Positions 6,628 to 60,101 of a DNA stretch of 64,000 nt are shown piece after piece. Position numbers and translations under genes: made by a program. Origin of the DNA: Caulobacter mirabilis (lineage in GTDB: Bacteria; Pseudomonadota; Alphaproteobacteria; Caulobacterales; Caulobacteraceae); contig NZ_CP024201.1 of NCBI RefSeq assembly GCF_002749615.1, forward strand, positions 1,054,001 to 1,118,000. Direction: 5' to 3'. Every line of letters starts with the position of its first letter. Position 1 is the stretch's first letter. The notes beneath the pieces are model-generated. The model did not search any database and was not told the origin of the DNA. It saw only the letters and a list, made by a program, of their open reading frames with translations.

Positions 6628-7289
6628 TGACCGGTTCGACCCCCAGACCCTTCGCCTTCGACACCGTCTTCGACGACGCGGGATCGATCGCCTATCAGCC
6701 CCCGGCGCGGAAGCGCCACTACACGGCGGAGGAGATCGAACAGGCTCGCGCCGCCGGCTACGCCGAGGGCGAGCAGTCCGCCCTGGCCCAGGCCGAGGCC
6801 GCCGTGGCCGACGCCCTGGCCGACCTGGCCCGCGCCGCCCGCCTGGGTCTTGGCGCGGTGCAGGGCGTGGCGCACGAGCATCGGGTCGGTTCCGCGGAGC
6901 TGGCCCTGGTCGCCGCTCGCCGCATCGCCGACGCCGCCCTGGCGCGGTTCCCTGAGGCCCCTGTCGCCGCCGCCCTGGAATCCCTGGCGCGCGAGATCGA
7001 GGCGCAACCGCGCCTGATCGTCCGCGTCGCCCCTGATCTGCAGGAGCGGGTCCAGCTCACGCTTGACCACGCCGCCGAGGCCATCGGCTTCCCGGGCCAG
7101 ATCCTGGCCCGGTCCGAGCCCGGCATGCCCGCCGCCGCCTTCGTCCTGGACTGGGGCGACGGCAAGGCGAGCTTCGACCCGGACGCCGCCGCCGCCCGCG
7201 TGGCCGAGGCGCTCGACGCCGCCCTGGCCGCCGAAGGCCTTCACGCCGAACCCCTGATCGCCCCCAGCGAGATCGACGACCATGTCTGA
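6627..7289 (+). CDS. fliH: Flagellar export-apparatus protein FliH (Caulobacter FlbE type)
   Basis: A 220-residue protein with an Ala/Glu-rich helical N-terminal half ([19 protein letters not shown], then a long heptad-like stretch to about residue 75) and a C-terminal FliH/HrpE-like domain with [15 protein letters not shown] and [15 protein letters not shown]. FliH forms a stator-like complex with the FliI ATPase and links it to FliN at the C-ring. Conservation is low, as is normal for FliH. Its position between fliG and fliN, where Caulobacter has flbE, supports the call. Start and stop overlap the neighbouring genes, so expression is coupled within the fliF operon. Confidence 0.85.
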
Positions 7290-51539: not shown

Positions 51540-51850
51540 AGCCGGGGCTCCAGGATCAGCGCGATCCACAGCACGCCGCCCAGGGCCGCGCAGCCGCCGG
51601 CCAGCCCGGCCCACAGCCGCCAGCTCTTCGGCTCGGCGAAGCACCAGACGACGACCGTGACATAGATGGCGAACGACAGGGTGGTGGCGGCGATCGTCGC
51701 CTCGATCGGCCCGCCAGGCAGCAGCTTGGCCAGCACCGCCGTCGCCAGCGAGGCGAAGACGTAGCCGACGCCGATGGCGGCGACGGCGCGGCCGGCGACG
51801 TCCAGCCGCCGGAGCCAGGTCGGACCTTCCTTGCGCTTGGCGGCGGCCAT
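51536..51850 (-). CDS. DUF3649 membrane protein (siderophore operon)
   Basis: A 104-residue protein with three helices: VAGRAVAAIGVGYVFASLAT, AATTLSFAIYVTVVVWCFAE, LWAGLAGGCAALGGVLWIAL. This matches DUF3649, found next to TonB receptors and PepSY proteins. Its start and stop each overlap a neighbour by four bases, so it is translationally coupled with both. No function is known beyond the iron-uptake context. Confidence 0.9.
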   Translation of the reverse strand: MAAAKRKEGPTWLRRLDVAGRAVAAIGVGYVFASLATAVLAKLLPGGPIEATIAATTLSFAIYVTVVVWCFAEPKSWRLWAGLAGGCAALGGVLWIALILEPRL

Positions 51851-54066
51851 CAGAACGCCGTGCGCAGGGTGACGGTGATCTTGCGCGGCTCGCCATAGTA
51901 GCCGCCGTTGTAGAAGCCGACGCGGCGCCAGTAGGTCTTGTCGAACAGGTTGTCGACGTTGACCGACAGCGAGACGTGGTCGTTGACCCGGTAGCGCGCC
52001 ATCAGGTTGGCCAGCACATACGAATCCTGGCGCACATTGGTCCGGACGGTGGTGGTGTTCGACGTCGGGATGGTGGCCAGGGTGTAGATTTCGCTCTGCC
52101 AGTTCAGTCCGCCGCCGACAGTCAGGCCGTCAAGGACGCCGCCCCACAGGCCGTCCAGGTCGTAGGTGGTGTAGAGGCGGGCGATGTTGCGCGGGTTGAG
52201 GGTGTTGATCCGCAGCGCCGCCTGGTTCTCGGTGTAGGCGTAGGTGTAGCCGCCCTGAACCCGCCAGCGGTCGGTGATCGAGCCGGCGACCTCGAGCTCG
52301 AAGCCGCGGGTCTCGGCGCCCGGGACGGCGCGGTAGGCGGTGCTGCCGTCGGGCAGCAGGAAGCCGTCCGGAACGGTCGGGTCGACCTCGGCCAGGTTCT
52401 CCTGCTTCACGAAGAAGCCGGCCGCCGCGACGTACAGCTTGCCCTCGAAGAACTCGCCCTTCAGCCCCGTCTCGTAGTTCGAGCCGATGACCGGCGGCAG
52501 CTGCTCGTTGTGCTTGTCCTTGTTGCTCTGCGGCTTGAACAGGTCCGAGTAGGACGCGTAGGCCGAGATGTTCGACGTGACGTCGAAGATCACCCCGACA
52601 TAGGGCGTCAGCCGGTCCTCGGCGTATTTGCCGGTGGTGCGTGCATAGGCGCCGGCCACGTAGTGGTCGGTCCGCGTTTCCCACTGGCTGCTGCGCGCGC
52701 CCAGGATGACCTTCAGCCGGTCGGTCGGGTTCAGGCGCAGCGCGCCGTAGACGCCGGTCTCCTTGGTCCGCGCGATCTGCAGCGGCTTGCCGGTGTTGAA
52801 GGTCGTCGGCTTGGGGATGTTCCCGGTCCAGGTCCGGATGTCGGGAATGGTCATGGGATAGGGGCGAGGTTCTCTGATTCCCGTGTCCAGGGTCGTCCCG
52901 TCGCGCTCGTAGCCGTTGGCGCCGAAGACCAGCTCGTGCTTGCGCCCGAACAGCTCGAACGGCCCGGAGGCGTAGATGTCGAAGCCCGTCTCTTCCTCCT
53001 GGTAGACGTTGTAGTAGTCGGCGACGGTCAGGCCGGCGCCGGTCTGGCGGTTCGGATAGCCGCCGTAGCCGTAGAACAGGAGGGCGGTGGACTCGCTCTC
53101 GCGCCGGTTCACCGCCGCCCGCAGGGTCCAGTCGCCCGGCAGCTGTTGTTCGACCACGCCGTACAGGTTCTCGGAGTTGCGGTCCCAGGTGCTCCACTTG
53201 GCCGCGACGTTGTAGCTGCGCGGCAGGTTGGTCGGCGTGCCGTCACGGTAGTAGAGCGGGGTCGTGCCCCAGGTCGTGCCCTTGGGGGTGACCTCCAGGT
53301 AGTCGTAGCCGACCCGCACCAGGGTCGTGTCGGTCACATCCGCCTCGACAGCCAGAAGGCCGAGGGTCTTCTTCTCCTCGTAGAGGTCGAAGTAGGACTG
53401 CCGCTTCTCGAAGCCGGTCACCAGCCGCGCCCGGACCTTGCCGTCGGCGAACACCGGGCCGGACAGGTCGGTCTCGATCCGGCCGCGTCCCCAGCTGCCG
53501 GCGGTCAGGCCGACGCTGCCGACGATGTCCTTGGTCGGCGCCTTGCGGATCAGATTGACGGTGGCGGACGGATCGCCAGAGCCGGTGACCAGGCCGGTGG
53601 CGCCGCGCACCACCTCGACCCGCTCGTAGATGGCGGTGTCGTTCATCACGCTGTTGCCGGACGAGTAACTGGTCGGCACGCCGTCGGCCTGGAAGTTGGC
53701 GATGGCGAAGCCTCGCGAGCTGAAGCCGACTCGGTTGGAGTCCAGCTCCTGGACGGTGATGCCGGTGGTCTGCTCCAGGACTGCGGAGATCGAGGACAGG
53801 GCGAAGTCGTCCATCCGCTCGCGGGTGATCACCGTCACCGACTGTGGCGTTTCCTTCAGGCTGAGCGGCAGTTTGGCGGCGGAGGCGGTCTGTCCGGCCT
53901 GGTAGCCGTTGCGGTGGCCGGTGACGACCACGCCTTCGACGTCGGTGGAGGTCTCGGCTTCATCAGCAGTCCGGGCGAGGGCGGGGGAGGCGAGGGCCGT
54001 CCCCGCCAACAGCAGAACCATCAGCGCGGAGCCCGCGCGACCCGAAGTGGAACTCGAACAACGCAA
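51850..54066 (-). CDS. TonB-dependent siderophore receptor
   Basis: A 738-residue receptor (TTG start at 54066). Signal sequence SALMVLLLAGTALASPALA, then the plug: ETPQSVTVITRERMDDFALS, GITVQELDSNRVGFSSRGFA, VRGATGLVTGSGDPSATVNL. The 22-strand barrel runs to the terminal aromatic ending ITVTLRTAF. The plug's VEGVVVTGHRNGYQAGQTAS is a TonB-box-like region. It resembles FhuE/FpvA ferrisiderophore receptors; the ligand is not known. A GGGGG precedes the TTG by 5 bases; a TTG at 54147 lies too close to the Fur box. It heads the four-gene operon. Confidence 0.93.
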   Translation of the reverse strand: MRCSSSTSGRAGSALMVLLLAGTALASPALARTADEAETSTDVEGVVVTGHRNGYQAGQTASAAKLPLSLKETPQSVTVITRERMDDFALSSISAVLEQTTGITVQELDSNRVGFSSRGFAIANFQADGVPTSYSSGNSVMNDTAIYERVEVVRGATGLVTGSGDPSATVNLIRKAPTKDIVGSVGLTAGSWGRGRIETDLSGPVFADGKVRARLVTGFEKRQSYFDLYEEKKTLGLLAVEADVTDTTLVRVGYDYLEVTPKGTTWGTTPLYYRDGTPTNLPRSYNVAAKWSTWDRNSENLYGVVEQQLPGDWTLRAAVNRRESESTALLFYGYGGYPNRQTGAGLTVADYYNVYQEEETGFDIYASGPFELFGRKHELVFGANGYERDGTTLDTGIREPRPYPMTIPDIRTWTGNIPKPTTFNTGKPLQIARTKETGVYGALRLNPTDRLKVILGARSSQWETRTDHYVAGAYARTTGKYAEDRLTPYVGVIFDVTSNISAYASYSDLFKPQSNKDKHNEQLPPVIGSNYETGLKGEFFEGKLYVAAAGFFVKQENLAEVDPTVPDGFLLPDGSTAYRAVPGAETRGFELEVAGSITDRWRVQGGYTYAYTENQAALRINTLNPRNIARLYTTYDLDGLWGGVLDGLTVGGGLNWQSEIYTLATIPTSNTTTVRTNVRQDSYVLANLMARYRVNDHVSLSVNVDNLFDKTYWRRVGFYNGGYYGEPRKITVTLRTAF

Positions 54067-54154
54067 CGCTACCCCCTGAATCCAACAGCCCCGACGCCCA
54101 GTCGGCGTCTGGCGGCAGGGCGTAGTGCGACTGGTTATCAGATGCAAGAGATTC

Positions 54155-54321: not shown

Positions 54322-54600
54322 ATGATCAGCAAGGTCAAGGTGATCGCCGGAGCGGCGATCCTCGCTTTCATGGGGTCGGCCAGCCAGGCTCAGGGCTACG
54401 ATCCCAATCTGACCGGCTACCACTACGTCTATTACGCCGATGCGGCGAAGACGATTCCGCTGGGCGAGGTCTCCGACCGCGGCTGCGGCGGCTGGGGCGA
54501 GCACAGGTTCGTCCTGCGGGCCTACGTTCCGTCGCCCTACTACGACACCACGGAGATCTTCTACTGCGGCGACGGCGGCATGGAGCCGCCCTGGTGGTGA
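54322..54600 (+). CDS. Small secreted protein (DUF6289-like)
   Basis: A 92-residue protein with signal peptide ISKVKVIAGAAILAFMGSAS. The mature part contains YHYVYYADAAKTIPLGEVSD and RGCGGWGEHRFVLRAYVPSP, with YYDTTEIFYCGDGGMEPPWW. The single Cys pair suggests a disulfide. This fits the small DUF6289 pattern. Its GGAGGAGCGT site is well placed. Function unknown. Confidence 0.75.
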   Translation: MISKVKVIAGAAILAFMGSASQAQGYDPNLTGYHYVYYADAAKTIPLGEVSDRGCGGWGEHRFVLRAYVPSPYYDTTEIFYCGDGGMEPPWW

Positions 54601-54651: not shown

Positions 54652-55293
54652 TCAGCCGCCGTAGCCGCGGCCGCCGCCGCCGAAGCCGCCGCGGGACACC
54701 ACCGACGTCCGGCTCTGAACGCGGGCCGGCGCCTTCTCGAGGCCGTAGTCGCTGGCCTTCACGGACGTCTTGCCGGTGCTGTAGTCGCGATAGACGTATC
54801 CGCCGCCGTAGCCGTTGCCGTAGCGGGCCTCGCAGGAGCCGTTGGAATAGCGGTACGTGCATTCCCGGTAGAGCGGGCGGGTCCCGTAAGACCGGCCGTC
54901 GCTGAGCAGCTGGCCGATGACGAAGCCCGTCACCAGCGGGGTGAAGAACGACCCCGAGCCGGAGTTGTTCACCTGGCACTGCCCGGACCCCCAGCTGTTC
55001 TCGCACTCCTCCTTGGTCCAGAAGCGCGGGGCCGTGCTGGCGGCCTGCTTCTGGGCGTCGGCGAAGGCCTTGTCGCACTGGTCGGCGGACAGCTTGCCCT
55101 CGGTCTTGCACTCGGCCAGGGAGGTATAGGCTGAGGCCGTCTCCACGGCTGAGTTGAGCTGCGACGAGGGCGTCGATGAATCGCAGGCGGCGAGCGTGAA
55201 GCTGGCCGTGGCCATCAGGCCGCTGACGTGGAGGACCCGAGAGCGCTTCAGGCGGCGCGGCGTCGTGGCTTCTGGCGCGTTTGGCTGGGACAT
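54652..55293 (-). CDS. DUF1190 lipoprotein-like protein (YjfM/YgiB family)
   Basis: A 213-residue protein. The start of the protein is basic (RRLKRSRVLHVSGLMATASF) and leads into a lipobox-like TLAACDSS. The DUF1190 pattern follows: YTSLAECKTEGKLSADQCDK, APRFWTKEECENSWGSGQCQ, LVTGFVIGQLLSDG, ECTYRYSNGSCEARYGNG, with conserved Cys pairs. The C-terminus is Gly-rich. It is the last gene of the leftward half of the yjf-like module. In E. coli, YjfM is in an operon with YjfI-L and YjfC; the molecular role is not established. Confidence 0.9.
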   Translation of the reverse strand: MSQPNAPEATTPRRLKRSRVLHVSGLMATASFTLAACDSSTPSSQLNSAVETASAYTSLAECKTEGKLSADQCDKAFADAQKQAASTAPRFWTKEECENSWGSGQCQVNNSGSGSFFTPLVTGFVIGQLLSDGRSYGTRPLYRECTYRYSNGSCEARYGNGYGGGYVYRDYSTGKTSVKASDYGLEKAPARVQSRTSVVSRGGFGGGGRGYGG

Positions 55294-55298
55294 GGCGG

Positions 55299-55712
55299 TC
55301 AGGCCGTCATGCAGGCGGCGTTCAGCAGCCCGATGCAGATGGACACGGAGGCCATGTACAGGCCGGCCGCGATCTCGCCGGCCTCGATCCGCGCGACGAA
55401 GTTCCGGAACGCCAGGCGGCTGATGACGACGAAGGCGACGACCTGGATCACGCCGGCCAGAACCGCCCAGGCGGCGAACTCGGGCAGGCTGACGGTGTGC
55501 GACAGCGCCGACGCCAGGGGCAGGACATAGCCGATCAGGGCGCCGCCCAGGGTGATCGCGGCGGCCGGGTTGCCCTCCCGGATCAGGGAGCGCTCATGAT
55601 AGGGCGTGACCCACTGGTAGATGATTTTGAACGCCAGGGTGAAGATCCCCGCGGCGGCGAAGGCGATCAGGAAGGCGACGGCGCCCTGCTGAAACGCGAA
55701 CCAGTCAAACAT
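55299..55712 (-). CDS. DUF350 membrane protein (YjfL family)
   Basis: A 137-residue protein with four helices (VAFLIAFAAAGIFTLAFKII, PAAAITLGGALIGYVLPLAS, AWAVLAGVIQVVAFVVISRL, EIAAGLYMASVSICIGLLNA). This is the DUF350 pattern, two similar helix pairs with Asn/Gly turns, as in E. coli YjfL. Such proteins are placed in envelope-stress or phage-shock-like gene sets. It lies 21 bases after the DUF2491 gene and 5 bases before the DUF1190 gene on the same strand. Confidence 0.92.
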   Translation of the reverse strand: MFDWFAFQQGAVAFLIAFAAAGIFTLAFKIIYQWVTPYHERSLIREGNPAAAITLGGALIGYVLPLASALSHTVSLPEFAAWAVLAGVIQVVAFVVISRLAFRNFVARIEAGEIAAGLYMASVSICIGLLNAACMTA

Positions 55713-55733
55713 GGAAACTCTCCCAATGCGCGC

Positions 55734-56381
55734 TCAGGCGCGGAACTCGGCCATCTCCAGCGGGATGCCGATCATGATCTCGTGTGTGGTCTCGCCGCCG
55801 TCCGGCTGCTGCTCCAGGGCCAGCATCAGTTCGCGTCCGCTCGACAGCTCGCGGGCGAACAGCATGCAGGTCTGGAAGATCTTCGCGTAGGGGCGGATCG
55901 CGGCGCGGTCGTCCCAGATGGTCTCCCAGAGGGTGACCGGCGGCTGGATGGCGTCGCTTTCCGAGAACCAGAACCGCGGATAGTCCGAAAGGTCTTCGGC
56001 CGCGCCCCGGAACACCGGCTCGGACAGGCGGTCCCGCCAGACCCGCCGCTCCCGCTCGCTGGAAGGGTAGGCCGAGCGCCAGGGGATGAAGAGGCTGAAG
56101 TCGTAGCTCTCCTCGCCGGCCGCATCGTCGCTCATCGCCTGCAGCATGATGTGGTCGTCGGTGTAGAAGCGATGGACGAACTGGCCGCTGTCCAGGGTGA
56201 TCAACCCCTGGGCGGTGATGTCCAGGGCGTCGCGGTCCAACGCGAACACGGTCTCGTCGCCCAACCGTCGCCAGGCGAGCGGATCCAGCGCGACGGCGCG
56301 GCCGACGGTGATGTCGCGCACTTCCGCCAGCCGGCGCTCCGGCTCGTTGTTCTTCTTGCCGCCGAACAGCTTGCCGAACAT
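55734..56381 (-). CDS. DUF2491 protein (YjfK family)
   Basis: A 215-residue cytosolic protein: MFGKLFGGKKNNEPERRLAE, LDPLAWRRLGDETVFALDRD, LDSGQFVHRFYTDDHIMLQA, YPRFWFSESDAIQPPVTLWE, HEIMIGIPLEMAEFRA. This fits DUF2491 (E. coli YjfK). The stop is 21 bases before the DUF350 gene. The proteins are predicted to work with YjfI and a PspA-like protein; no enzyme motif is visible. Confidence 0.9.
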   Translation of the reverse strand: MFGKLFGGKKNNEPERRLAEVRDITVGRAVALDPLAWRRLGDETVFALDRDALDITAQGLITLDSGQFVHRFYTDDHIMLQAMSDDAAGEESYDFSLFIPWRSAYPSSERERRVWRDRLSEPVFRGAAEDLSDYPRFWFSESDAIQPPVTLWETIWDDRAAIRPYAKIFQTCMLFARELSSGRELMLALEQQPDGGETTHEIMIGIPLEMAEFRA

Positions 56382-56383
56382 GC

Positions 56384-57427
56384 CTAGGCCTCCGCCAGCG
56401 CCCGGGAGTCCAGGCGCGCGCTGGCGACATAGAACAGCCGGTCGCCGGTGGATACGAGCGTGTCGGGGCTGGGGTTGAAGCGCGGCTCGGTCTGCCCCGC
56501 CGGCTGGAGCGCCAGCAGGGTCGCGCTGCGCTCCCACAGCCGGCGCGTCAGTTCGCCGGTCGGCCGCTGGGCGCTGTCCCAGGTCAGGCTGAACAGGGTC
56601 GCGCCCTCGTCCAGGTGGCTGGTCAGGGCGCCGATCACCTGGCTCGCCCCAGGGTCTGAGGCGGCTCGGGCCAGCAGCTCGGCGCCCGAGGCCACGACCA
56701 CTTCTACGGCCGGGCAGTGCTGGGCCAGCAGCCGGGCGTTGTCGGTCTCTTCGAAGAAGCAGACGATATGGGCCGAGGGCGAGGCCACGGCCGCCGCCGC
56801 CAGGGTCGCCGCCAGGGTGTCGGCGTCGCTGGACGCATAGACCAGGATGCGGTCCGCCGCCGCCGCGCCGGCGCGGGTCAGCGCCGCGGCGGAGGTCAGG
56901 CTTTCGCTCTGCACGTAGCGGACGCGCGGATCGGGCTCGAGGATGGTCTGGCGCGTGAGCAGGATGAGGGTCCGCCCCGGCGTCTCCTCGGTGCACAGCT
57001 CGTCGATCATCTTCGGCGTGCGCGCCGCGTCATAGCCGATCAGGAGGATGCTGCCGGTCATCCTTGAAAAATCTCCTTTGCCCGCCCGTCGGGCGCGCCA
57101 GACGTCGCCGATCGAGCCGAGCACCTTGGCGACCACGGTGGTGAAGGCGGCGATGGCGCCCGGGAAGACCCAGAGCGCCGTGATGAGCCGGCCCGCCGAT
57201 CCTTGCGGACTGATGTCGCCATAGCCGACGGTGTAGGCGGTGGTCGCGTACCAGTAGAAGAAGTCCGCCGGCGCCTGGAGCTTGGTTTCGTCGGCGATCG
57301 ACAGCATCAGCCATGAGGACGCCGCGTGGAGCACGATCAACCCGGCCAGCATGCGCCAATGCATGTCGGCCGCGGCGTGGAGCGCCCGGTCGAAAACTTG
57401 CGCCAATCTGATGCGCGCCAGCACCAT
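56384..57427 (-). CDS. Potassium channel with TrkA-N/RCK domain
   Basis: A 347-residue two-helix channel. TM1 is LAGLIVLHAASSWLML, the pore helix and filter WYATTAYTVGYGDISPQGSA, TM2 ALWVFPGAIAAFTTVVAKVL. A cytosolic Rossmann domain follows: ILLIGYDAARTPKMIDELCT, IVCFFEETDNARLLAQHCP. The TVGYGD filter means K+ selectivity. The N-terminal GTG at 57430 is followed by ATG at 57427, which is better placed after AGGGGAAGGGT. It leads the leftward operon and is adjacent to the DUF2170 gene's palindromic intergenic region. Confidence 0.93.
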   Translation of the reverse strand: MVLARIRLAQVFDRALHAAADMHWRMLAGLIVLHAASSWLMLSIADETKLQAPADFFYWYATTAYTVGYGDISPQGSAGRLITALWVFPGAIAAFTTVVAKVLGSIGDVWRARRAGKGDFSRMTGSILLIGYDAARTPKMIDELCTEETPGRTLILLTRQTILEPDPRVRYVQSESLTSAAALTRAGAAAADRILVYASSDADTLAATLAAAAVASPSAHIVCFFEETDNARLLAQHCPAVEVVVASGAELLARAASDPGASQVIGALTSHLDEGATLFSLTWDSAQRPTGELTRRLWERSATLLALQPAGQTEPRFNPSPDTLVSTGDRLFYVASARLDSRALAEA

Positions 57428-57479
57428 CACCCTTCCCCTTGATATAACACTGGTCGAACCGCCTAGCCGAAGTCAAGCG

Positions 57480-57501
57480 TTCATGTTACGCGTTACATGA
57501 A
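57480..57501. promoter_or_regulatory. Palindromic operator-like site in the divergent yjf intergenic region
   Basis: TTCATGT-T-ACGCGT-T-ACATGAA is a 22-bp dyad with only two mismatched positions (the T/T pair). It ends two bases before the DUF2170-gene ATG and 50 bases from the channel gene ATG, so a protein bound here could control both operons. No strong Shine-Dalgarno is present for the rightward gene between this site and its ATG. Confidence 0.6.
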
Positions 57502-57503
57502 AC

Positions 57504-58169
57504 ATGCCCAGATCAACGTCCAACACCGCGAATGACCGCATCCGGGCCTGGCGACAGGCGCGGAAGGCGGCCGGAATGGTGAAGATCGAGATCTGGGCCC
57601 CGGAGTCCGCTCGAGAGGACATCAAGGCGGCGGTCCGGGCCATCGTTACAGAATCCACGAGGGCGCCCGAGCTGCGTCCCCGTCCCAGTCGTTCGACTTC
57701 CCGCTCCGGAGCAGACCACAAGATGGACGCCGTGATTGAAACCCCCTGGACCGTGCCGACCATAAAGGCGGCGCTGGAGACCTCCGACCTCGTGCGCGAC
57801 GGCGAGATGACCGTCCGGGTGCTGGAGGGCGCCGAGCCGGTGCTTCTGGCGACGATGCACGAGTACGGAGACCTGCCGATCTACCTCAGCGTCGGCGGGG
57901 CCCAGATCGTCTGTTCGGTGTTGCTGTGGCCGGTCGCCGAGCAGGGCAACCGCGCCCAGTTCAACGAGTTCCTGCTGAAGGCCCAGCGCGTGGTGCCGCT
58001 GTCGAACTTCGCGATCACCACCATCGGCGACGAGGACATTTATGAGCTGATGGGCGAGCTGTCGTGCAAGACCACGCTCCAGACCATTCTCATCGAGCTG
58101 CGCACCCTGGCCGAGAACGCGATCGACGCGACCGAGCTGCGCGAAACCTTCGCGGCCGACGCCGCCTGA
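57504..58169 (+). CDS. DUF2170 protein (YjfI family) with an N-terminal DNA-binding-like domain
   Basis: A 221-residue protein. Residues about 74-220 form DUF2170 (WTVPTIKAALETSDLVRDGE, LPIYLSVGGAQIVCSVLLWP, VVPLSNFAITTIGDEDIYEL, MGELSCKTTLQTILIELR). The first about 50 residues, NDRIRAWRQARKAAGMVKIE and IWAPESAREDIKAAVRAIV, have the strand-helix plan of ribbon-helix-helix DNA-binding proteins and resemble the N-terminus of short antitoxins of the VQIWVPD type. A basic Ser/Pro linker joins the parts. E. coli YjfI is shorter (about 133 residues, from memory), corresponding to the C-terminal part only. Starts at Met25 or Met74 are possible. Confidence 0.85.
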   Translation: MPRSTSNTANDRIRAWRQARKAAGMVKIEIWAPESAREDIKAAVRAIVTESTRAPELRPRPSRSTSRSGADHKMDAVIETPWTVPTIKAALETSDLVRDGEMTVRVLEGAEPVLLATMHEYGDLPIYLSVGGAQIVCSVLLWPVAEQGNRAQFNEFLLKAQRVVPLSNFAITTIGDEDIYELMGELSCKTTLQTILIELRTLAENAIDATELRETFAADAA

Positions 58170-58185
58170 TTTCGGAAGATCCCCC

Positions 58186-58935
58186 ATGTCCATGCTGAGA
58201 AAACTGTCCGCCCTGTTCCGCGGAACCGCGCATGACGCCGCCCAGAATGTGGTCGACGCCAACGCGCTGAAGATCCTCGACCAGGAAATCCGCGACGCCG
58301 ACAACGCCCAGGGCAAGGCGCGCGACGACCTCGCCGGCCTGGTCGCCCGCCGCCGCATGGCGGAAAGCGAGATGCAGAGCTTCCTGGACCAGATCGGCAA
58401 GTACGAGAGCTCCGCCCGCGCCGCCCTCGACCAGGGCAAGGAAGACCTGGCCCGGGAAGTCGCCCAGCGCATCGCCGATATCGAGACCGAGATCGACAAG
58501 CGCGGTCCGATGATCGAGGACATGAAGACGGCCGAGGCTCGCCTGCGGTCGGCCATCGCCGCGACGGACCAGAAGATCGAGACGCTGCGTCGCGAGATCG
58601 ACATCGTGAAGGTCAACGAGTCGGTGCAGCGCGCCCAGGCCTCGGTCGCCCTGAACTCCGCCGGCGCCCAATCGCGGATCGGCTCGGCCGCCGACAGCCT
58701 CCAGCGCATCAAGCAGCGTCAGGCCGTTCAGGAGGAGAAGCTGCGCGCCGGCCAGGAGCTGGAGGACAAGCGCACCGGCGCCGACCTCGACGCCAAGCTG
58801 CGCGACGCCGGCATCCTGCCCGGCCAGGCCTCGGCCGACGACGTGCTGGCGCGTCTGAGCCGGCGCGAGGAGGTGACGGTCGTCACCCCGCGGATCGGCC
58901 AGTCCGTCTCGTCCAAGGACAAGGACCCCGCCTGA
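58186..58935 (+). CDS. PspA/IM30-family coiled-coil protein (YjfJ family)
   Basis: A 249-residue mostly helical protein: LRKLSALFRGTAHDAAQNVV, ILDQEIRDADNAQGKARDDL, then long heptads with Glu/Ala/Lys through about 185, and a loose tail. This is the PspA/IM30 pattern, a membrane-binding ESCRT-III-like protein that stabilises damaged inner membranes. In this context it corresponds to E. coli YjfJ. GGAAGA precedes the ATG; it starts 17 bases after the DUF2170 gene and two bases before the next gene. Confidence 0.93.
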   Translation: MSMLRKLSALFRGTAHDAAQNVVDANALKILDQEIRDADNAQGKARDDLAGLVARRRMAESEMQSFLDQIGKYESSARAALDQGKEDLAREVAQRIADIETEIDKRGPMIEDMKTAEARLRSAIAATDQKIETLRREIDIVKVNESVQRAQASVALNSAGAQSRIGSAADSLQRIKQRQAVQEEKLRAGQELEDKRTGADLDAKLRDAGILPGQASADDVLARLSRREEVTVVTPRIGQSVSSKDKDPA

Positions 58936-58937
58936 GT

Positions 58938-60101
58938 ATGGAGCGTCTGCGTTTCGATCCCCGGCCCGACTGGGACGCCAAGGCCCAGGCCGTCGGCTTC
59001 ACCTGGCGGCACGACGACGGAAAGCTCTACTGGGACGAGTCGGCGGCCTACGCCTTCTCGCTCGAGGAGATCGAGGAGGGAATCGAAGCGCCGACGGCCG
59101 AGCTGCAGGGGCTCTGCCTCGATCTGGTCGCCGAGGCGGTCCAGTCGGAACGCCTGATGGAGCAGCTGGAGATCCCGGAGGCGATGCGCGACTACGTCTC
59201 CGACAGCTGGCGCCGGAGCGCGCCGTCGCTCTACGGCCGCTTCGACTTCGCCTATGACGGAACCGGGCCGGCCAAGCTCTACGAGTACAACGCCGACACC
59301 CCGACCAGCGTCTACGAGACGGCGGTGTTCCAGTGGCTCTGGCTGGAGGACCAGATCGCGGCCGGCGTTCTGCCGGCCGACGCGGACCAGTTCAACAGCC
59401 TGCACGAAAAGCTCGTCGACCGGTTCAAGACCATCTTCCCGAACGGCGGCTTCGTCCATTTCAGCTCCGACGCCGACTTCGTCGAGGATCGCCAGACGGT
59501 GCGGTTCCTCGAAGATCTCGCGCGCCAGGCCGGTCTGGACCCGCAGTTCGTCGCCATCGACCAGATCGGCCTGAACGCCGACGGCCGCTTCGTCGACCAC
59601 GAGAACTGGCTGATCAGCGCGATCTTCAAGCTGTATCCCTGGGAGCAGATGCTCCGCGACGACTACGCCGCCCCGCTGCCGGGCGCGGAGGTGGCCGTGC
59701 TGGAGCCGGCCTGGAAGAGCATCCTGTCCAACAAGGCCATCCTGCCGCTGCTCTGGGAACGGCACGCCGGCCACCCCAACCTCCTGGAAGCCTATTTCGA
59801 GGACGACCCGAAACGCGCGGCGTTGGGCGACAGCTATGCGCGCAAGCCGCTGTTCTCCCGCGAAGGCGCCAACGTCGAGCTGGTGGACGCGGGCGTCAGC
59901 GCGGGCATGGACGACGGCGGCTATGGCGACGGCCGGCACATCCTCCAGGCGTTGCGGCCGCCGCCGAATTTCGACGGGCAGCACGTGATCATCGGCTCCT
60001 GGCTGGTCGGGAACGAGCCCGCCGGCATCGGCCTGCGGGAGGACCCGGGCCGGGTCACGCGCAACACCTCGCGGTTCATCCCGCACTTCATCCGCGGCTA
60101 G
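58938..60101 (+). CDS. Glutathionylspermidine-synthase-like ATP-grasp ligase (YjfC/YgiC family)
   Basis: A 387-residue protein of the glutathionylspermidine synthase preATP-grasp/ATP-grasp family: [120 protein letters not shown]. It would ligate an amine to a peptide or protein carboxyl group using ATP. The amidase half of E. coli Gsp is absent, as in YjfC/YgiC. Substrate unknown; in this cassette the target may be envelope-linked. It starts two bases after the PspA gene. Confidence 0.94.

Follow-up and report, generated by a model that had tools for sequence, protein, structure and literature searches.

The gene cluster analyzed here lies at positions 54652-60101 of a 64,000-nucleotide stretch of Caulobacter mirabilis DNA (contig NZ_CP024201.1, positions 1,054,001 to 1,118,000 of the forward strand; this whole stretch is called the window below), and its gene families have been described together before. 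According to the passages of Ravi et al. 2024 (PMC11237479) on their third group, CesT/Tir-PspA + GSPS, this group contains the same seven families as the window. Of the features by which the class is recognized, the window has DUF2170 beside PspA, together with a GSPS-like ligase, a channel pore, DUF350, DUF1190 and DUF2491. As for an intracellular ligand-sensing domain on the channel, the alignment with MthK extends over the RCK region and the TrkA_N score is below its cut-off. The group is presented in these passages as one operon, whereas the window has two divergent operons sharing a site. The passages mention no N-terminal domain of DUF2170, no operator and no internal start, and a ribbon-helix-helix gene appears in them as a separate gene of another group.

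In Escherichia coli K-12, yjfI-J-K-L-M-C are contiguous on one strand, so that the comparison with a single E. coli operon in a preliminary description of the locus was correct. These genes comprise six of the window's seven families, with no channel among them. E. coli YjfI lacks the extra N-terminal domain (N-domain) described below, and its upstream 150 bp reach at best 7/10 of the site described below. In Pseudomonas aeruginosa, DUF2170 (BacA; structure 8q8o) likewise stands beside PspA, and negative control of its own operon is reported in the available text of PMC10948618. The bac operon differs from the window in its downstream genes, the crystal is that of a short form, and according to the same text sigma-54 was proposed for its expression.

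In the accessible parts of the respective reports, the bac operon of P. aeruginosa affects biofilm and rhamnolipids (PMC10948618), PA3728-PA3732 belong to a group of 17 genes that rose in every phage-infected sample of one study (PMC12041424), PA3729 and PA3732 show a negative log2 fold change in a heat study (PMC4957987), and yjfIJKL are strongly expressed in E. coli evolved at 45.3 degrees, which was attributed to a promoter mutation (PMC12492005). The envelope or PspA stress role proposed in the preliminary description agrees with what these parts of PMC10948618, PMC12492005 and PMC12041424 say of relatives.

The gene set of the window is already known, and the proposed regulatory design appears to be new. 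In our literature search, which left most subscription papers outside, neither the N-domain nor the site nor the internal start was found to be described. Work on PspA proteins treats them as membrane repair proteins of the ESCRT-III-like kind, and we know of few accounts of how they are switched on outside the PspF/sigma-54 system. We consider it fairly probable that the window holds a PspA-type module under an autorepressor switch that senses PspA through its chaperone-like half, and that a short isoform is made as well. The families, the layout, the extra domain and the selection on it, the conservation of the site, its overlap with a promoter in gammaproteobacteria and the internal Shine-Dalgarno sequence (SD) were all computed here. 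The preliminary description lacked this regulatory part (extra domain, site and internal start), and its interpretation was partly supported. Its view that the system is poorly described was half right: the same gene set is found in the text on the third group in PMC11237479, and the ligase class has an activity report and solved structures.

We compared 160 loci, namely 80 with the N-domain from outside the window's family (non-family loci), 56 with the N-domain in the family set, and 24 without an intact N-domain. The non-family loci are the 80 best among 248 relatives. The 76 family loci comprised the window and loci from 75 of the 141 further genomes with DUF2170; flank length played a part in their choice. 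The region retrieval yielded 79 loci, 75 of them in the window's family. L117 and L099 are probably one contig, likewise L118 and L102, and the counts hence contain two loci twice. Although L099 and L102 are members of other families, they were included in the family set of 56 loci.

The DUF2170 protein of the window (YjfI/BacA-like; 57504-58169, +) is a long form of 221 amino acids, in which about 75 residues precede the DUF2170 domain (Pfam PF09938, 8.3e-47). Within this extension, a MazE-antitoxin-like domain was placed at residues ~9-50 (57528-57653, +) on the basis of AlphaFold models and purifying selection. The domain was recognizable by motif in 136/160 loci, and an alignment of 60 members from alpha- and gammaproteobacteria showed residues R, G, K, E and W to be invariant. 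The proportions of nonsynonymous and synonymous differences (pN/pS) in the N-domain were 0.154/0.674 in gammaproteobacteria, compared with 0.179/0.631 for the C-terminal domain, and 0.228/0.544 in 44 family loci. A third-position excess was also observed. The N-domain is protein-coding and under purifying selection. In one more locus, L109, the domain is present and cut off by an in-frame stop near 7032, between the N-domain and DUF2170, which makes it a broken or split regulator; this locus was counted among the 24. Near these 24 loci no separate N-domain gene was found, the sole match being the interrupted domain of L109 itself.

In the AlphaFold model, the N-domain consists of a helix, an extended segment and a helix, with a mean predicted local distance difference test score (pLDDT) of 86.7 for the domain alone. 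The Pfam MazE-like antitoxin family (PF11455) matched 41/60 N-domain members at E up to 1 (best 2.8e-4), and the NCBIfam plasmid repressor UrfF likewise matched 41/60 at E up to 1 (best 4.9e-6). Families other than these matched few members, except for the NCBI BacA model, which has 206 residues, includes the N-domain and matched 54/60. MazE-like antitoxins combine a regulator with a partner-binding C-terminus, to which the long form of DUF2170 would be analogous. The similarity of the N-domain to PF11455 is weak and below the family cut-off, and the C-terminus in the window is instead a chaperone fold: Foldseek with the C-terminal domain returned 8q8o (2.2e-11), SigE (9.2e-4), ExsC (1.6e-3) and SicP (2.0e-3). 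Against the NCBIfam BacA model (NF050185), the window protein scored 148.8 bits over residues 13-218 and did not reach the cut-off of 300. It has the BacA architecture and is not a BacA equivalog. A BacA-like match was present in 142/398 genomes, among which one locus (L199) was examined.

A dyad site, TTCATGTTACGCGTTACATGAA (57480-57501), lies 2 bp 5' of the DUF2170 ATG, within the 76 bp that separate the divergent operons. Shuffles did not contain it, and the 4.58-Mb genome has no second copy even with three mismatches allowed. In the relatives, the site was scored as the best match to TTACATGTAA (10 positions) within 100 bp upstream of DUF2170. A score of at least 9/10 was obtained in 77/80 non-family loci, in 34/56 family-set loci with the domain and in 0/24 loci without an intact domain, where dinucleotide shuffles predicted 0.7, 0.5 and 0.0 loci, respectively. 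For L109 the upstream stretch was taken from a later start, and the fair count without the domain is 0/23. Upstream of PspA, no such match was found in the 160 loci. The two TTACATGTAA cores were 13-14 bp apart in 29/29 family-set loci having both; outside the family, their spacing was 22-24 bp in 57/75 and 14 bp in 12/75. A degenerate pattern of the pair occurred exactly once in 11/17 genomes and not in the other 6, and the reversed control gave 0. By comparison of coordinates, all 11 occurrences end 16-18 bp before the DUF2170 match. The site was single-copy in all 12 genomes where it was found. Variant palindromes replace the TTACATGTAA-type site in some family members. In L101, GACATAATATGTCTTGACATATTATGTC, which consists of two tandem palindromes of a different motif, stands just upstream of a DUF2170 gene without the N-domain. 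Since the motif differs, another regulator is probably at work there.

These counts bear on a plainer explanation, namely that the cluster is an ordinary, described PspA/GSPS cassette, that the palindrome is the site of an unrelated regulator, and that the N-terminal extension serves otherwise, for example in PspA or membrane binding. The gene set is indeed contained in the third-group text of PMC11237479, and no family or fold could be assigned to the N-domain with confidence. However, an unrelated regulator does not fit well with a paired site that occurs once only, at the DUF2170 gene, in the 11 genomes with a match, with its absence at 9/10 or better from the loci without an intact domain, or with its position between -35 and -10 in gammaproteobacteria. 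We therefore regard this explanation as unlikely.

The position of the site relative to a promoter was clearest in gammaproteobacteria. When 63 gammaproteobacterial loci were aligned on the last core, TANNNT was found at one fixed offset in 54 of them. TTG stood 17 bp before the TANNNT place in 33/63 loci and 18 bp before it in 11/63, with the last core between the two elements, and the ATG followed TANNNT by 6-7 nucleotides in 55/63. Read from these sequences, the gammaproteobacterial site occupies the spacer between the elements of a sigma-70-like promoter, a place suited to a repressor. An ATG so close to the -10 element suggests a leaderless message. In the window's family, TTGTCA is at the -35 place in many loci. 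In the window itself, a possible promoter was noted at 57470-57498 (+), with a -35-like AAGTCA (57470-57475), a 17-bp spacer, a -10-like TTACAT (57493-57498) and a start on the ATG or close to it. The evidence for a promoter comes from relatives, not from the window.

For the bac operon, a -24/-12 site has been proposed upstream of pa3732/bacA, according to the available text of PMC2587700 and PMC10948618. This proposal speaks against an autorepressor, because sigma-54 would drive expression and BacA would act indirectly as a chaperone. Such an arrangement appears highly improbable to us. If PA3732 starts internally, the DNA directly upstream of it encodes the N-domain, and in gammaproteobacteria a sigma-70-like arrangement precedes the long start. 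In the main text of PMC10948618, the terms 'ribbon', 'MazE' and 'DNA-binding' have 0 occurrences.

A possible short form begins at the internal Met74, with GGAG 5' of it (57723-58169, +), and would consist of the chaperone-like DUF2170 domain only. Of 79 sequences, at least 90% have Met at this place, where the DUF2170 domain begins. The linker before it (residues 53-73) was disordered in the AlphaFold model of the window protein, and relatives without the N-domain begin at about the same position. In the non-family loci, the mean SD energy was -1.44 at the long ATG (1% at or below -6; n=80), -9.36 at the internal ATG (95% at or below -6; 77 scored) and -8.43 at PspA (97% at or below -6). In the family set, the corresponding means were 0.17, -5.09 (55 scored) and -6.48. 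The scoring left out L106, L158, L165 and L190; of these, only L190 lacks the internal Met.

The same features were found in a genome whose DUF2170 protein is 99% identical to 8q8o (probably P. aeruginosa) and which also has the N-domain and the paired site. Its frame has 206 codons, with TTACATGTGAGCTATTGAAGTCTTACATGTAA 5' of it, and GGAGAAGGAG precedes the internal ATG. The 146 residues that follow Met60 in this frame equal the chain length of 8q8o, and the alignment register agrees. The crystallized BacA (8q8o) covers the short form only. In the accessible text of PMC2587700, PA3732 is given as 16 kDa. Thus, earlier work appears to have used the short form.

Two other interpretations of the internal start were weighed. 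First, the internal ATG might be the sole real start, and the upstream frame a leader rather than a protein. The strong SD at the internal ATG and its absence at the long ATG in non-family loci would agree with this, as would the 16-kDa PA3732 (PMC2587700, text as available) and the short-form crystal. Nevertheless, the upstream frame evolves as a protein, given its third-position excess, its gammaproteobacterial pN/pS and five invariant residues in 60 members, and the NCBI BacA model of 206 residues includes it. This interpretation is very unlikely. Second, the internal Met and its SD might be relics of an older fusion, with the long protein alone being made. The start of domain-less relatives near the internal Met is consistent with relics, as are a codon choice untuned beyond the amino acids and the modest SD in the window's family. 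On the other hand, the internal SD of the non-family loci is as strong as that of PspA, and Met74 is kept directly after the disordered linker. We judge the relic interpretation rather unlikely.

From these sequences we infer DNA binding, two isoforms and a PspA signal, arranged as follows. The long DUF2170 protein would combine a small N-terminal DNA-binding domain with a CesT/Tir-like domain. A dimer of it would bind the CATG-centred dyad in the shared promoter region and repress its own operon; judging from the position of the site, the divergent operon of the window is probably repressed too. The C-terminal domain would bind PspA, the product of the next gene, and in resting cells the complex would keep the operon low. 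Membrane damage would draw PspA to the membrane, alter the occupancy of the chaperone domain and lift the repression. The direction of this PspA effect is a guess, in which release is favored by analogy with PspA-PspF control. From the internal ATG with its own SD, a short form without the DNA-binding domain would be produced, which may chaperone PspA or compete with the long form.

The contact with PspA is proposed because PspA adjoins DUF2170 in 80/80 non-family loci, because the two are fused in L145, and because an interaction has been predicted and a strong one mentioned as unpublished. In L145:9001-10329 (Alkalisalibacterium limincola), N-domain, DUF2170 and PspA form one 443-codon frame, which is a natural fusion unless the stop was lost through a sequencing error. 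As far as the available text of the two reports goes, the predicted BacA-BacB contact has a value of 0.981 (PMC13092808), and PMC10948618 mentions a strong interaction as unpublished. The latter also reports that a bacA mutant accumulates its own operon partners.

More tentatively, and with less than even confidence, we suggest a self-titrating switch. The leaderless start would give a fusion of repressor and PspA receptor, and the internal SD start the receptor alone; their ratio and the free PspA would set the operon. This would be autorepression of the toxin-antitoxin type rather than PspF/sigma-54 control, and it might have been missed because the P. aeruginosa annotation appears to begin internally. 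If the autorepressor design is correct, a regulator, an operator and, in gammaproteobacteria, a promoter can be named for the YjfI/BacA branch, and the accumulation of its own operon's proteins in the bacA mutant is accounted for. It would also suggest that the crystallized BacA probably lacks its DNA-binding half. The question of regulation would become a simple binding assay.

Several results weigh against the autorepressor design. The Pfam scores of the N-domain are below the cut-off, the window segment reaching 18.4 bits against PF11455 with a gathering score of 22. Four N-domain segments searched alone gave two weak MazE-like matches and two unrelated weak ones. A profile of the N-domain found no relative among solved structures (one match, E 0.38), and a fold search with the N-domain model gave no match (best E 5.4). 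Thus, the DNA-binding fold of the N-domain is a candidate. Concerning the site, 22/56 family-set loci with the domain scored below 9/10, and a general dyad test at p 0.05 was positive in 32/56 family-set loci, 61/80 others and 3/24 domain-less loci. Joint loss of the domain and the site is seen in a single clade of 21, in a tree shown without support values; since it is confined to this clade, it counts as essentially a single event. A query that itself contains the N-domain was used to find the 80 non-family loci. The promoter of the window is weak, with 6/12 in a 12-base test in which another -10 frame was used, and a generic sigma-70 scan of the window found no promoter. Among the relatives, a TTGACA/TATAAT test gave at least 9/12 in just 9/80 and 1/56 loci, where shuffles predicted 1.9 and 0.3. 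At the internal start, the family set has a modest SD (-6 or lower in 15% of loci), for which codon choice by itself does not account (synonymous shuffles, median p 0.37 and 0.26). Since these shuffles do not single out codon choice, the internal SD signal lies largely in the amino-acid sequence.

A ribbon-helix-helix label for the N-domain was considered and dropped, as profile and fold searches of solved structures give no support. Ribbon-helix-helix regulators have a strand-helix-helix dimer fold, whereas the N-domain model is helix-extended-helix, with no fold match.

The seven genes belong to the families named in the preliminary description, at correct coordinates and with Pfam matches above the curated cut-offs against which assignments were judged. 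The layout of two divergent operons was also as described. The rightward operon starts with DUF2170 and continues with a PspA/IM30 family protein (YjfJ/BacB-like; 58186-58935, +; PF04012, 2.7e-48), which scored 13.3 bits against the equivalog TIGR02977 and did not reach its cut-off of 242.95. It ends with an ATP-grasp enzyme of the YgiC/YjfC peptide-spermidine ligase family (58938-60101, +; PF03738, GSP_synth, 3.7e-144). The leftward operon contains a K+ channel (56384-57427, -), a DUF2491 protein (YjfK-like; 55734-56381, -, with its ATG at 56381; PF10679, 1.7e-54), a DUF350 membrane protein (YjfL-like; 55299-55712, -; PF03994, 1.5e-36) and a DUF1190 protein (YjfM-like; 54652-55293, -; PF06693, 3.8e-36), which is a predicted lipoprotein with the lipobox LAAC assigned by eye.

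The channel has a two-transmembrane (2TM) pore and a weak RCK/TrkA_N domain. Its ATG is at 57427, with the SD-like AAGGGGAAGG 5' of it and a GTG one codon upstream. The pore is firmly assigned (Ion_trans_2, 44.8 bits with a cut-off of 22.5; 1.1e-11; GYG by eye), and residues 58-259 align with MthK through the pore and RCK (best E 3.4e-5). TrkA_N itself scored 19 bits, below its cut-off of 23.8, and was dropped as a firm domain call.

DUF2170 was present in 142/390 genomes of the window's family and DUF2491 in 143/390. According to lists compared by eye, both were found in 141 genomes, and the singletons G521, G697 and G760 are drafts of 180-390 contigs. The six non-channel genes had the same divergent order in 76/76 family loci, a co-occurrence beyond chance. 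The channel, which the preliminary description had counted as part of the set, is optional in the window's family, being found in 6/76 loci. In the other family loci, only ~90-370 bp lie between the matched domains of the two operons. In 17 further loci, mostly alphaproteobacterial, the channel was found in 16; several of these lie on short contigs, and two are probably duplicates of earlier ones. All 63 gammaproteobacterial loci had the DUF2170-PspA dyad, and the other families were within 9 kb in just 2, some loci being cut by contig ends. Thus, the cluster has this dyad as its core, the window's family keeps the six genes in tight linkage, and the channel is accessory. An evenly drawn sample of the class contained DUF2170 in 6/385 genomes. 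A plasmid search matched 66 records, of which 3 covered at least 80% of the query. In L131, the channel/DUF2491/DUF350/DUF1190 operon is downstream of the ligase, not upstream and divergent. This arrangement indicates that the two halves of the cluster can move as units.

The ligase of the window matches YgiC (7uk8, 5.9e-117) and YjfC (7uk6, 2.9e-116) over its full length, and the homology to the solved ligases of this class (7uk6, 7uk7, 7uk8 and 7uka; E ~1e-116) is likewise full-length. Peptide-spermidine ligase activity was reportedly found for the class by Pederick in 2023 (cited in PMC12568646). As the activity is known from the E. coli relatives, the window enzyme is a predicted peptide-spermidine ligase. 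In L099:9836-12335, an Orn/DAP/Arg decarboxylase-family gene and a DUF3326 gene are located 3' of the ligase, and similar frames were recognized by eye in L102. A decarboxylase gene beside the ligase would fit a polyamine substrate, and a link between them is possible.

Rfam and tRNA searches of the window gave no match. A frame of 92 codons (54322-54600, +) adjoins the DUF1190 gene; by eye it probably encodes a signal peptide, and Pfam gave no match at E 0.1. The cluster is flanked at 51850-54147 (-) by a TonB-dependent receptor-like gene, followed by a PepSY-like membrane protein, both recognized by eye.

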